A DNA stretch of 64,000 nucleotides, from contig NZ_PIQF01000002.1 of assembly GCF_003987275.1 (NCBI RefSeq), positions 496,001-560,000 of the forward strand, given 5' to 3'. Numbering within the stretch: position 1 is the first letter of the stretch; each line of letters begins with the position of its first letter. The notes under the pieces are model-generated. The model had not been told where the DNA came from. It saw only the letters and a program-made list of their open reading frames with translations, and ran no database searches. This stretch comes from Idiomarina seosinensis. GTDB lineage: Bacteria; Pseudomonadota; Gammaproteobacteria; Enterobacterales; Alteromonadaceae. Of this stretch, positions 8,073-13,916 are shown one piece after another. The position numbers were made by a program, and so were the translations under genes.

Positions 8073-8215
8073 CGGAGGTGCTGAGAAAATTCGGCTATTG
8101 ATTTGAGATTTGTGTACGAAGTCCTCCTTTTTGCTGTACCTCGTTTTGTAAGTCCAAGTAATACCTAAGTTTCTGAGCAATTGATTTTTAACATGCACTA
8201 CGAGGAAATATCAGC

Positions 8216-8422
8216 ATGTCTACTACGACTGGTAAAGTAAAATTCTTTAACGAAGCGAAAGGCTTCGGTTTCATCGAGCAAGAAAATGGCGCGGACGTTT
8301 TCGTTCATTTCAGCGCTATCCAAGCAGACGGTTTCAAAACTTTGGCTGAAGGCCAGCAAGTTTCTTTCACCGTAGCACAAGGTCCTAAAGGTCCTCAGGC
8401 TGAAAACGTCGTTCCTATGTAA
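8216..8422 (+). CDS. CspA-family cold-shock protein
   Basis: A 68-residue single cold-shock domain that binds single-stranded RNA and DNA. RNP1 (KGFGFI, residues 16-21) and RNP2 (VFVHF, near 30-34) are intact. The ribosome site is GAGGAAA, 8 bases upstream of ATG. A strong promoter, a leader of about 137 nt and a perfect downstream hairpin terminator make this a single-gene unit. Which csp paralogue it is, and whether it is cold-induced, cannot be decided from sequence. Confidence 0.96.
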
Positions 8423-8447
8423 GCAACGCGTTTAAAGAATTCTTAAA

Positions 8448-8480
8448 AACGCCGTTCTGGTTTCAGAGCGGCGTTTTTTT
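8448..8480 (+). terminator. intrinsic terminator after csp
   Basis: A 12-bp stem (AACGCCGTTCTG with CAGAGCGGCGTT, one G-U pair) with a 4-base loop, followed by a run of seven T. It ends the csp transcript. Confidence 0.92.
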
Positions 8481-10977: not shown

Positions 10978-11427
10978 CTAGCCGAACTGCTTTAAGAGCT
11001 TGTTAACGTCAGCAAGAATCGCGTCTTTCATGCTAACTTCGTAGCCCTCTCGTTCTTTATCCATTTCCCGTATTTTCTTTTTAGGAAACTTCTTTCTATT
11101 TTCATGAGTTGGCATATGTTTAATTTTTTCATACATTTCATGCATTGCAGGATAGTCTTTCGCGTAATCATATTCCACCGCTTCTGGACGGTGATCAAGC
11201 AGCACAACAATACGTAAACAACCTTCGGAGAAAGGGCACTGTTCTTGCTGCATTGCCTTAGCAATAGTAATGATACTCTCGTCAATACGGTCTACCCGCT
11301 TCTGTACCGAGTCCCGACGAAGCTGATTTTGCTGCTTTAACCGGCGTAATAGTTTGCTAGCGTAAAACGCCAGTCCAACAATAATCAGTACACCCAAAAT
11401 AATTATTAATAACATTGTCGCTGACAT
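10978..11427 (-). CDS. DUF2489 membrane-anchored protein
   Basis: A 149-residue protein with one N-terminal transmembrane helix (residues 4-25, LLIIILGVLIIVGLAFYA) and a basic, helical cytoplasmic portion. The pattern matches the family usually found next to yihI in Vibrio- and Shewanella-type genomes; the function is unknown. Two cysteines flank QEQCPFSEGC. It starts on the last base of the yihI stop (TAATG), so the two are translationally coupled. Conservation of this pairing hints at a role with YihI in ribosome assembly, which is inference only. Confidence 0.8.
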   Translation of the reverse strand: MSATMLLIIILGVLIIVGLAFYASKLLRRLKQQNQLRRDSVQKRVDRIDESIITIAKAMQQEQCPFSEGCLRIVVLLDHRPEAVEYDYAKDYPAMHEMYEKIKHMPTHENRKKFPKKKIREMDKEREGYEVSMKDAILADVNKLLKQFG

Positions 11428-11873
11428 TAGTACTCCTCGTCGTCCAAGTCGTCTTCTATATCAATACCCAGTTGCTGTGCTAATTGTTCATAACGCTCAG
11501 ACTTTTTATCCAGGTAACGCTGTTCATCCACGGTCAGCTCCTCACCCGCTTCAAACCGTTCGACTAATGCTTGTAGTTGAACATCTTGCTCTAATTGCTT
11601 GAGCTCTTCCGCGGGTGTGATTTCACTGGGAGTATTCTGTCCCTGCGGAGTCACTAATGGAATTTTTCGACGACTGCCTTTGCGTGGGTCCTGTTTTTCT
11701 GAAACCTGTTGCTCACTATGCGATTTTCCACCAGAGTGCCGTTGTCCCGGTTGATGCCCTTTGCCCTTTCGCTTGCCTTTAGCCGCTTTATCCGGTGTTT
11801 TTTCGTCGCGAGGCTTTTTACCGGGAGCTAGTGGACCCGGCTTTCTAGATTTCTTTTGGCGAGTCATACTCAC
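11427..11873 (-). CDS. yihI: Der GTPase-activating protein YihI
   Basis: A 148-residue, highly charged protein. The N-terminal 80 residues are Lys/Arg/Gly/Pro-rich and probably disordered (RQKKSRKPGPLAPGKK). The C-terminal half is acidic and helical (EELKQLEQDVQLQALVERFEAGE, ending in an Asp/Glu-rich tail), the layout of YihI, which stimulates the ribosome-assembly GTPase Der. The ATG is preceded by AAGGAGTGAGT. No promoter is evident in the first 80 bases upstream, where an orphan terminator for upstream minus-strand transcription sits. Confidence 0.88.
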   Translation of the reverse strand: MSMTRQKKSRKPGPLAPGKKPRDEKTPDKAAKGKRKGKGHQPGQRHSGGKSHSEQQVSEKQDPRKGSRRKIPLVTPQGQNTPSEITPAEELKQLEQDVQLQALVERFEAGEELTVDEQRYLDKKSERYEQLAQQLGIDIEDDLDDEEY

Positions 11874-11956
11874 TCCTTATCATGTGCAATATGCTTATTG
11901 TAACGCATTGCGGGATAATTCGTCAGTGAATGAGTGAAGAGAAGATGATGGGGATT

Positions 11957-11989
11957 AAAAAGAAAAAAGGCGATGCATTTGCATCGCCT
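11957..11989 (-). terminator. orphan intrinsic terminator, minus strand
   Basis: A perfect 10-bp stem (AGGCGATGCA / TGCATCGCCT) with a 2-base loop, followed in the minus direction by TTTTTT, C and more T. Cytochrome c4 already has its own terminator at 12425-12448, and yihI begins downstream of this one. The hairpin must therefore end a transcript that starts inside the gap, or act as a back-up. Confidence 0.88.
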
Positions 11990-12086
11990 GTCTCTCTCAT
12001 ATTTGGCAGCGCACTGCAGCTATGAGAATGGTTGTCACTGCTTCCGAGTTTTTATTGTGGTCTTCCGTAACCGGTCTTTTATTATT
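11957..12086 (-). ncRNA. candidate small regulatory RNA, about 130 nt
   Basis: No protein gene fits here. A promoter (-35 TTGGCT, 16 bp, -10 TATAAT) predicts initiation near 12086, and a strong terminator closes the transcript near 11957. The RNA begins with an A-rich single-stranded segment (AATAATAAAAG), has a second A-rich patch (ACAATAAAAAC), and then a hairpin of CTCATA/TATGAG around an inner GCAG-TGCG-CTGC stem just before the terminator. A-rich AAxAAxAA patches next to a U-tailed terminator are typical of Hfq-bound small RNAs. It does not resemble Spot 42, which lies in this neighbourhood in enteric bacteria. The identity is unknown; the transcript might also start further upstream. 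Confidence 0.45.
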
Positions 12087-12092
12087 GTTTTT

Positions 12093-12120
12093 ATTATATA
12101 ATAAGGAGATCCATAGCCAA
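12093..12120 (-). promoter_or_regulatory. sigma-70 promoter for the candidate small RNA
   Basis: On the minus strand a -35 TTGGCT (12120-12115, 4 of 6) and a perfect -10 TATAAT (12098-12093) are separated by 16 bp. Nothing but the candidate RNA lies downstream before the terminator. Confidence 0.55.
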
Positions 12121-12138
12121 AAGCATTTTCACTCCCTG

Positions 12139-12213
12139 GATTATCGAACATTTTTTTGTTGTTCTTAATTATCGATAATCAATCTCGACCTCTTGTTATT
12201 TTTTTGTGTCGAG
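12139..12213 (-). other. two tandem hairpins with A-rich loops, in the rest of the yihI-cytochrome c4 gap
   Basis: Read on the minus strand, CTCGAC/GTCGAG (12213-12208 with 12189-12184) encloses an 18-nt loop containing AACAAGAG after an A run. Three bases further on, a perfect 9-bp stem GATTATCGA/TCGATAATC (12180-12172 with 12147-12139) encloses a 24-nt loop containing AACAACAAAAAAA. Further AACAAAAAG copies lie at 12362-12370 and 12401-12409, and a small CCTTC/GAAGG hairpin at 12261-12278. The remainder of 11874-12466 is AT-rich with no convincing ORF. The structures could belong to a longer RNA of about 450 nt ending at the same terminator. Confidence 0.5.
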
Positions 12214-12424
12214 CAACGCCGTCTTTTTAATCAACGATCTTATTATTTTTAGCCTGAAGCCCTTCTTATAAATGAAGGTTTCCCTGCAGACGCTGTAAAG
12301 ACTACTGCAATGAGATTTTTATTCAATGATTTTATTGATCTAAAAAACTGATTTTTTATTACTTTTTGTTGTAAAAGCGTATAGTTTAATAATTTCTATG
12401 CTTTTTGTTATGTTTTTAGGTCTT

Positions 12425-12448
12425 AAAAAAGGGCGGTTAAAACCGCCC
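12425..12448 (-). terminator. intrinsic terminator of the cytochrome c4 gene
   Basis: GGGCGGTT and AACCGCCC form an 8-bp stem with a 2-base loop, followed by six T in the minus direction, 18 bases after the cytochrome stop codon. Confidence 0.92.
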
Positions 12449-12466
12449 CTCTATTAAATCAGTTTT

Positions 12467-13093
12467 TTAGTATAAACCGTGTAAGTACTTTGACAGTAAC
12501 TCGATTTCTTCATCGGTCATTTTTTCAGCAACACCACGCATCATACCGTTTGGATCATTTGCTCGCTCGCCACTGCGAAACATCTTAAGCTGAGAAATAA
12601 CGTAGGCTGGATATTGCCCTGAGATATCAGGGAATGCTGCTAATCCCATGCCGTTACCGCGCGGACCATGACAGCCTGCGCAAGAAGGGACTTTACTCTC
12701 CGGGTTGCCGCGCCGATATAAGTCTGCTCCTTTCGCAATCACGTCCTCAGCAGTGTCGCCCTTCGGTTCATCCTGAGAGGCATAAAACGCAGCTAAGTCA
12801 GCCATATCTTGTTTCGACAAACTGGCTACCTGACCCATCATAATCGCATTGTTACGACCTTCTTCGCCGCCAGTCTCTGATGCCGTTTTAAAATCCATTA
12901 ACTGCTTATACAGATACTTTTCGTGCTGACCGGCAAGGTGAGGGTACATATCAGTAGGGGCCGTTCCCTGCGGTCCGTGACATGCCGCACAAACTTGTGA
13001 CTTATTCTTACCTGCTTCAGGATCGCCTTGCTGGGCTAAAGCCACACCGGTTGATCCTAGAAATAATCCCAAAATAATCGCGAATTTTTTCAT
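12467..13093 (-). CDS. diheme cytochrome c4
   Basis: A periplasmic electron carrier of 208 residues with a Sec signal peptide (MKKFAIILGLFLGSTGVALA) and two class I cytochrome c domains. The heme-binding motifs are CAACH (near 41) and CAGCH (near 137), with axial Met candidates in PHLAGQ...MMGQ and NGMMRG. The start at 13093 begins the signal peptide; an in-frame upstream ATG at 13135 would place 14 unrelated residues before it. Cytochrome c4 donates electrons to cbb3-type or related terminal oxidases. Location next to engB is common in gammaproteobacteria. Confidence 0.94.
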   Translation of the reverse strand: MKKFAIILGLFLGSTGVALAQQGDPEAGKNKSQVCAACHGPQGTAPTDMYPHLAGQHEKYLYKQLMDFKTASETGGEEGRNNAIMMGQVASLSKQDMADLAAFYASQDEPKGDTAEDVIAKGADLYRRGNPESKVPSCAGCHGPRGNGMGLAAFPDISGQYPAYVISQLKMFRSGERANDPNGMMRGVAEKMTDEEIELLSKYLHGLY

Positions 13094-13217
13094 GTTTGCT
13101 TCTCTTGTATCTCTAGTGGCGAGCGTCGCCGACATACATCGCTATAAACAGTCTGCTATTTTACACAAAACTCGTGTGGATTAAATGATTAAAACACATT
13201 CAATACCGATTTGATCA

Positions 13218-13246
13218 TTGGCTGATGGGTTGTAATCCGTCATAAT
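13218..13246 (+). promoter_or_regulatory. putative sigma-70 promoter of engB
   Basis: A -35 TTGGCT (13218-13223) and a -10 CATAAT (13241-13246, 5 of 6) are separated by 17 bp, about 46 bp ahead of the engB start codon. Confidence 0.45.
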
Positions 13247-13292
13247 GGAGGTTCGAATACGCCATTCCCAACAATAGAGTGAATCTTGCACC

Positions 13293-13916
13293 GTGCCGGA
13301 TAGTAAACCAATTAACTACCAAACCGCTAAATTTATTACCAGCGCCCCGGATATCAGCAAGTTACCTGATGACACCGGCATTGAAATAGCCTTTGCAGGG
13401 CGCTCTAATGCCGGCAAGTCTAGTGCGTTAAACACACTTACACGTCAAAACTCACTAGCCCGAACCAGTAAAACGCCGGGACGTACTCAGTTAATCAATG
13501 TCTTCGAATTAGATAGTGGACAACGACTTATTGATTTACCCGGCTATGGCTTTGCTAAAGTTCCGTTGGCCGTTAAAGAAAAATGGCAACAGTCGTTGTC
13601 TGAGTATCTGCAAAGAAGAGACTCATTAAAGGGGTTGGTGGTATTAATGGATATAAGACATCCCTTTAAAGAAACCGATCAGGAACTTATTTACTGGGCC
13701 GTTAGCTGTGAAATTCCGGTTTTAGCGTTACTCACCAAAGCCGATAAACTGAAGCAAGGTGCCCGAATGAATATGGTGCTTAAAGCCCGTCAGGCGGCGA
13801 TTGCCTTTAACGGTGATGTTACAGTAGAAGCGTTCTCGTCACTAAAGCGGTTTGGTGTCGACAACGTCGAAAATGTATTAAACCAGTGGTTTAACAATGA
13901 CTCAGACGCACAATAA
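13293..13916 (+). CDS. engB: ribosome-biogenesis GTPase EngB/YihA
   Basis: An essential GTPase for 50S subunit maturation, 207 residues. The G motifs are in order: G1 GRSNAGKSS (residues about 35-43), G2 GRTQ, G3 DLPGYGFA (near 77), G4 LTKADKL (near 145) and G5 SSLK. The start is GTG at 13293, since an in-frame stop lies 15 bases upstream and no ATG precedes the conserved N-terminus. The ribosome site is weak. The 3' end overlaps the EamA transporter start by 20 bp, so the two are co-transcribed. Confidence 0.95.

Follow-up and report, generated by a model that had tools for sequence, protein, structure and literature searches.

In a 64,000-nt stretch of the Idiomarina seosinensis genome (hereafter the window), the cytochrome c4 gene and yihI are separated by a gap (11874-12466) that, judged from comparative sequence evidence, almost certainly holds an independent regulatory-RNA gene (Table 1). 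The 5′ end of this RNA (12293) is placed from the -10 element of a proposed promoter, and the RNA ends at an intrinsic terminator. When the gap was used as a DNA query against 60 genomes, 22 matched, namely its own genome, 18/18 other genomes of the genus, and three more, among which yihI adjoins the match in G028 only. Most matches within the genus share a conserved block that begins near 12370 and extends as far as the terminator at 11958; in G012 and G014 it is chiefly the 3′ part of the gap that matches. Alignment A1 comprises 17 of the 19 genus sequences (L007 and L015, which are near-copies, were omitted), and 25 of 30 yihI loci were analysed (L027 to L030 and L034, from repeat genomes, were omitted). 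The -35 element reads TTGATT or TTGAAC in some relatives, and the -10 element reads TAGTCT in 14, TATTGT in 4, and TAGGCT in 1 of the 19 rows of the genus alignment. The strongly conserved block upstream (12321-12370) contains an imperfect dyad, ATCAATAAAATCATTGA, and is possibly a regulator or UP-element site; in many other genera, direct repeats resembling TTGTAAAAAAGTTGTAAA stand in its place. The RNA contains no notable reading frame (the longest on its strand is 38 aa), and no tandem repeats were found.

Table 1. Genes, promoters, and RNA elements of the cytochrome c4-yihI locus, in window positions.
Feature	Position	Strand	Remarks
Cytochrome c4 gene, upstream neighbour	12467..13135	minus	18/19 genus loci; absent at L013
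Conserved block upstream of promoter, AACAAAAAG..TTTTTTAGATCAATAAAATCATTGAAT	12321..12370	minus	genus alignment
Proposed promoter	12299..12326	minus	-35 TTGAAT (12326-12321), 16-nt spacer, -10 TAGTCT (12304-12299)
Small RNA in csrC position, ~333 nt	11961..12293	minus	genus matches and alignment of 17
A-rich site 1, AAAAATAATAA	12240..12250	minus	AAnAAnAA here in 17/17 genus sequences
Hairpin CTCGAC/GTCGAG	12184..12213	minus	A-rich site 2 (12203-12193) in loop, present in 17/17; 3/6 pairs changed on both sides
Hairpin GATTATCGA/TCGATAATC	12139..12180	minus	A-rich site 3 (12166-12153) in variable loop, present in only 4-5/17
Conserved GGA site, TCCAGGGAGT	12131..12140	minus	GGA in 17/17
A-rich site 4, AATAAAAACAATAATAA	12079..12095	minus	AAnAAnAA in 16/17; overlapped by the TATAAT of the earlier note
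Short hairpin GGT-TACGGAAG-ACC, loop GGA (CsrA-type)	12059..12072	minus	GGA in 17/17
A-rich site 5, AATAAAAA	12049..12056	minus	AAnAAnAA in 13/17
Conserved block CTCGGAAGCAGTGACAACCATTCTC	12024..12048	minus	third invariant GGA; many invariant columns in 17 sequences
Stem-loop CTCATA..TATGAG	11996..12026	minus	94.9% of cells paired; outer helix without both-sided change
Intrinsic terminator AGGCGATGC..GCATCGCCTTTTTTCTTTT	11957..11989	minus	8/8 pairs intact in 17/17 genus sequences
Probable separate yihI promoter, CTGACG-18-TACAAT	11897..11926	minus	pattern scan
yihI, downstream neighbour, synteny anchor	11427..11867	minus	adjoins RNA in 19/19 genus loci

At the one genus locus where cytochrome c4 was not found upstream (L013, in G017), other sequence abuts the RNA, and the RNA and yihI are still together. 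On the downstream side, GTTACAAT recurs by eye ahead of yihI in relatives. A methyltransferase-like gene, also recognized by eye, lies between the RNA terminator and yihI at L014 to L018 and at many of L033 to L056; many loci of other genera have it, some genus members do too, and the window lacks it. The sole above-threshold Rfam match in the window is a cspA thermoregulator leader at 8076-8478 on the plus strand (106.1 bits).

The earlier note on this DNA had proposed a regulatory-RNA gene in the gap, and conservation and covarying stems bear that proposal out. All of the elements that it listed are present, including the terminator (stem 11989-11968, then a T tail), a TTGGCT-16-TATAAT promoter (12120-12093), both hairpins, and AACAAAAAG copies near 12362 and 12401. 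A pattern scan alone gives 1 terminator against 1.5 expected and 6 promoters against 2.3 expected (sd 2.0), the latter mildly above chance; in the alignment, the terminator and the 12213-12184 hairpin stand out beyond chance by their retained and compensated pairs (Table 1). Stems and terminator are kept across the genus: in 17 sequences, 97.5% of cells are paired over the 28 named pairs, 5 of which have changed on both sides, with 0/500 shuffles as high. In 21 RNAs from other genera, 98.3% of cells are paired over 23 pairs, 12 of which have changed on both sides (0/500 shuffles), and slid controls for these stems pair in ≤55% of cells; both shuffle results carry the caveat that kinship alone can beat shuffles and that the structures were derived from those same alignments. 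To judge from these comparisons, the stems of the RNA are under selection. Fold z scores are -4.00 for 130 nt and -5.36 for 467 nt.

The A-rich loops that the note saw in both hairpins fared differently: the loop of the 12213-12184 hairpin is A-rich throughout the genus alignment, while that of the 12180-12139 hairpin is so in only 4-5/17 sequences, and at the latter place L014, L016, and L017 have, by eye, a stem of different letters. Further downstream, the short hairpin at 12059-12072, in which one pair has changed on both sides in the genus alignment, resembles by eye both GYC-AGGAW-GRC of other genera and GTC-AGGAA-GAC of Escherichia coli csrC. The RNAs of other genera carry that hairpin with 3 bp, in the shape of a CsrA site, together with a GCTTC/GAAGC hairpin that has an A-rich loop. 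Within the adjoining block at 12024-12048, GACAACC.TTCTC is invariant among the genus and three sister-genus sequences, and no stem accounts for this invariance; the block is possibly an antisense or pairing seed.

Motif statistics separate A-rich (Hfq-type) from GGA (CsrA-type) sites. The RNA contains 12 AAnAAnAA motifs, the type bound by the Hfq distal face, against 1.6 expected (0/500 shuffles), all of them within the five A-rich stretches of Table 1, and 5 GGA against 5.9 expected, which is chance level. Counted per 333 nt over both strands of the 64-kb window, AAnAAnAA reaches up to 15 here and ≤4 elsewhere. The same pattern extends over the genus, where 19 RNAs average 11.1 AAnAAnAA (expected 1.6; 19/19 significant) and 5.2 GGA (expected 5.1; 0/19 significant), and over five sister-genus RNAs (AAnAAnAA 10.2, expected 1.5; GGA 5.8, expected 5.7). 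In the 21 RNAs of other genera, both motifs are in excess (GGA 6.9, expected 4.7, 0/300 shuffles; AAnAAnAA 5.9, expected 1.1), and E. coli csrC has 14 GGA against 9.0 expected and 0 AAnAAnAA. Per 100 nt, the 15 loci of family f6 have 3.82 GGA and 0.77 AAnAAnAA, compared with 1.53 and 3.30 in the genus. These numbers fit the Hfq or CrcZ-type reading of the A-rich sites in the earlier note. Its judgement that the RNA is not CsrB-like agrees with the chance-level GGA count and not with the csrC position or the GGA hairpins of related genera. Three of the five GGAs (12135, 12066, and 12045) are invariant in 17/17 sequences, compared with 9.6% of 3-mers (P = 0.008); since these sites are kept beyond chance, the genus has probably not given up CsrA binding altogether, and selection may still maintain it.

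The locus occupies the position of csrC. The csrC gene of E. coli K-12 is flanked by yihA and yihI and has the orientation of yihI; the RNA of the window lies between engB/cytochrome c4 and yihI and is likewise co-oriented with yihI. The 3′ part of E. coli csrC reads GTCAGGAAGAC, followed by an end GGCGACAG..CTGTCGCCTTTTTTCTTT, in the same order and form as in the window. In a search of 149,509 bases, model R1, built from the 21 RNAs of other genera, scored E. coli csrC with 30.2 bits (E = 5.6e-4) and the RNA of the window with 24.5 bits (E = 0.0078). Of the 19 genus loci, 15 had a match that ran to the terminator, and for 6 of these E was ≤ 0.01. R1 gives 18.4 bits to the terminator of E. coli by itself, on the other strand, and misses the window RNA in its own genome at a genome-wide E of 0.01. 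Model R2, built from the genus and three sister-genus RNAs with the terminator included, finds 10/22 RNAs of other genera at E ≤ 0.01 and E. coli csrC at E = 0.21. When R1 was rebuilt without the terminator (R3), it did not find E. coli csrC, and it aligned the window RNA at 12.0 bits (E = 1.2) in a different register, with the best genus locus at E = 0.1. With E. coli csrC lost and the RNA of the window only weakly aligned by the terminator-free model, descent from csrC is not proven by sequence. That descent is nonetheless probable on the basis of the slot, the orientation, the terminator, and the short hairpin, and not of a proven alignment; "csrC position" is the name of a place, not of a function. 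We do not claim membership of the CsrB/CsrC group as a CsrA sponge, because an excess of GGA was tested for and was not found.

Rfam places neither CsrC nor CsrB in the window at gathering score, or in the gap even at E = 5, and gives no match at gathering score on 16 relatives. Below threshold, Rfam CsrC falls on the RNA in 2/11 relatives (L053, E = 9e-6; L056, E = 0.0027); a further match in L048 (E = 0.0074) was discounted, since it coincides with the terminator and is on the wrong strand. The slot is widely occupied in the marine relatives. R1 matched 63 of 295 genomes of the order at E = 0.01; among the best 30 of these loci, cytochrome c4 and yihI both adjoin in 27 and at least one does in all 30. 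An exact family motif was found on 35 named contigs (from Alteromonas, Paraglaciecola, Aliiglaciecola, Bowmanella, Salinimonas, Aestuariibacter, Lacimicrobium, Neptunicella, Pseudoalteromonas, and others), with the RNA between cytochrome c4 and yihI in 35/35. R3, tried on 9 of the 15 f6 loci and three named contigs, finds the f6 RNAs (9/9 given, E ≤ 0.00016) and that of Pseudoalteromonas (E = 8.4e-13), linking the other genera of the family with family f6. At five f6 loci (L084, L087, L091, L097, and L099), a second, weaker R3 match precedes the main match by several hundred bases, in the same orientation, which may point to a longer f6 RNA or to a second copy. The distribution suggests a regulatory RNA in the csrC slot well beyond enteric bacteria; following Csr RNAs by sequence there is reported to be difficult (PMC9927453, PMC11882849).

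The genome background bears on which protein such an RNA could serve. CsrA is encoded in 19/19 genus genomes, and the own genome has an Hfq gene. E. coli UvrY, at E = 1e-40, has no match in any of the 19 genus genomes, compared with 34/41 others and 16/17 in the same family. Rfam CsrB was found in 0/19 genus genomes and 19/41 others, an absence that weighs little because, under stricter filters, it was found in only 6/17 genomes of the same family. Together the UvrY and CsrB results fit a loss of the classical Csr input, with one conflicting report, a source that lists GacS and GacA in Idiomarina (PMC7366521). No UvrY box (TGTAAGN6CTTACA) with ≤3 mismatches occurs at 11718-13651. Two or three CsrA matches were obtained in 10/19 genus genomes (one in the own genome), and Rfam CsrB in none of them. 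A non-exhaustive search of the own genome for a further csrB yielded no candidate: Rfam CsrB gave no match, sites resembling the UvrY box (8 rows at 5 loci; controls, 5 and 9) were not GGA-rich, and the GGA-hairpin motif matches lay inside open frames in 18/18 cases.

We consider the best explanation to be an RNA of the csrC locus that acts as a decoy and has shifted mainly from CsrA to Hfq, a reading to which we give a probability of about 0.4. That the RNA is a decoy for some protein is probable in itself; that Hfq is its main client in the genus stands at or somewhat below an even chance. The RNA would be made as an independent transcript of ~333 nt from its own promoter to the intrinsic terminator, and its four or five A-rich single-stranded stretches, between hairpins and in loops, would each hold one Hfq hexamer by the distal face. 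Titration of Hfq in the cell, in the manner of CrcZ, would then free mRNAs that Hfq holds through A-rich sites, and the three conserved GGA sites would leave limited binding of CsrA. A fuller history, in which a CsrA decoy changed its client as UvrY (and perhaps CsrB) was lost, GGA fell to background, and A-rich linkers expanded until the RNA was mainly an Hfq decoy, is possible but doubtful; relatives already carry the linkers that would have expanded in the genus. If such a client change is true, related genera would be the intermediate, with a two-protein decoy coupling the CsrA and Hfq networks.

Against the best explanation, the A-rich linkers are possibly mere spacers, and the leading alternative builds on this: an ordinary CsrA decoy of the CsrB/CsrC type, in which the A-rich stretches keep GGA hairpins open and Hfq is uninvolved. 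The csrC position, the presence of CsrA throughout the genus, the invariance of 3/5 GGAs, and, in other genera, a GGA hairpin with a covarying pair and an excess of GGA all speak for it, as does the CsrA binding of the probable Pseudoalteromonas counterpart Pf3, in vitro and by RIP-seq (PMC11882849). However, the number of GGAs in the genus is at chance with 0/19 RNAs significant, UvrY was found in none of the 19 genomes, and a spacer needs no retention of AAnAAnAA, which is nevertheless kept in 16-17/17 sequences at three stretches; we regard this alternative as unlikely, though still a serious contender. It is improbable that a CrcZ-like Hfq decoy arose independently in the gap, without descent from csrC: such an origin would agree equally with the AAnAAnAA excess (12 versus 1.6) and with the lack of a detectable sequence relation to E. 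coli csrC once the terminator is set aside, but the slot, orientation, and terminator form are those of csrC, related genera have GGA hairpins and a GGA excess at the same slot, and Rfam CsrC reaches E = 9e-6 in L053.

An Hfq-dependent base-pairing sRNA, with the conserved GGAAGCAGTGACAACCATTCTC block (12045-12024) as its seed and the A-rich sites serving only to load Hfq, is slightly less credible still. The invariance of GACAACCNTTCTC in 20/20 sequences (genus plus three sister-genus) is what such a seed would lead one to expect, but the RNA is very long for an sRNA of this kind, and other genera differ at the like place (GGGAGAAGTGTC), which is partly hairpin there. The lengths proposed in the earlier note, about 130 nt (starting from its TATAAT, 12098-12093) and about 450 nt, are not supported by conservation. 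A separate gene of ~130 nt is very unlikely because, although TTGGCT-16-TATAAT has 10/12 matches and the segment folds well (z = -4.00), neither hexamer is conserved, the TATAAT sits in an A-rich linker that reads TTTAATAATAAC or similar in relatives, and conservation extends to 12293 and beyond, with the conserved promoter at 12326-12299 giving ~333 nt. A processed 3′ fragment of the RNA is possible. Of the AACAAAAAG copies noted earlier, that at 12401 falls outside the conserved block and that at 12362 precedes the 5′ end placed here. Equally little can be said for the RNA being a leader or attenuator, whether for yihI or, in other genera, for the methyltransferase-like gene next downstream: although the RNA is upstream of and co-oriented with yihI wherever both were seen, its terminator is intact in 17/17 sequences, a separate promoter-like site precedes yihI, and many loci retain the RNA with another gene between it and yihI.

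Several known RNAs can be set beside this one. Spot 42 (RF00021) was rejected, as the earlier note had anticipated: there is no Rfam match at gathering score or at E = 5, despite polA and engB nearby. Among the titles of the Idiomarina literature on CsrB, Hfq, and small RNA, none concerns the RNA of the window. Relatives of it may be predicted, reportedly, in Kulkarni 2006. The Shewanella csrC predicted in print, at mutM-SO_4727, is a different locus (PMC3171408). Marine relatives have Csr-type decoys in Aln1a-c of Alteromonas (PMC5864184) and in Pf1 (PMC9927453); the former differ in forming a triple locus within one 404-bp gap, and the latter in being GGA-dense with a putative GacA box.

A closer comparison is Pf3 of Pseudoalteromonas fuliginea, which has 9 GGA, matches TAA/AAT-rich repeats, binds CsrA in vitro (EMSA), as also indicated by RIP-seq, and in E. 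coli leads to higher glycogen (PMC11882849). The RNA of Pseudoalteromonas sp. P1-9 between cytochrome c4 and yihI (L102) reads AATAATAATAAT and has about 10 GGA, and from this locus we infer that Pf3 is probably the Pseudoalteromonas counterpart of the window RNA. If Pf3 is the c4-yihI RNA, its binding of CsrA speaks for a Csr-type role of this locus in relatives. Pf3 differs in being a shown CsrA binder and in coexisting with the GGA-dense Pf1 and Pf2, whereas Rfam CsrB was not found in the genus of the window. Matches of Pf3 to TAA-rich zebrafish repeats puzzled its authors (PMC11882849); they would have a simple reading if the locus carries Hfq-type A-rich sites.

CsrC of E. coli (RF00084) shares with the window RNA its slot, its orientation, the GTC-AGGAA-GAC hairpin, and a terminator of like form (GGCGA..TCGCCTTTTTTCTTT), but it is 246 nt long with 14 GGA and 0 AAnAAnAA (window RNA, ~333 nt, 5 GGA, 12 AAnAAnAA), and no sequence relation between the two was detected without the terminator. 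In Salmonella, CsrC is reported as not enriched by Hfq (63/64 cDNAs; PMC2515195), so that Hfq binding by the window RNA would be a real change. The other point of comparison is CrcZ of Pseudomonas (RF01675), a 407-nt RNA whose six A-rich stretches bind the Hfq distal face and titrate Hfq (PMC4063720), much as the five stretches in 333 nt would do here. In contrast to CrcZ, the window RNA has no above-threshold Rfam match (13.9 and 12.7 bits in the gap; gathering score, 95) and no sigma-54 (RpoN/CbrB) promoter at 12420-12270, where the best match has 4 mismatches. Five sub-threshold CrcZ matches in the own genome (E = 0.1 to 9, none over the cut-off) are meaningless because 9/14 control genomes match too, and the CrcZ locus is presumably a different one. 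CsrA decoy RNAs and Hfq decoy RNAs are generally treated as separate families. If our reading is true, an RNA of the csrC locus with Hfq-type sites would illustrate how a decoy swaps its protein partner and would connect two global regulators of marine bacteria directly.
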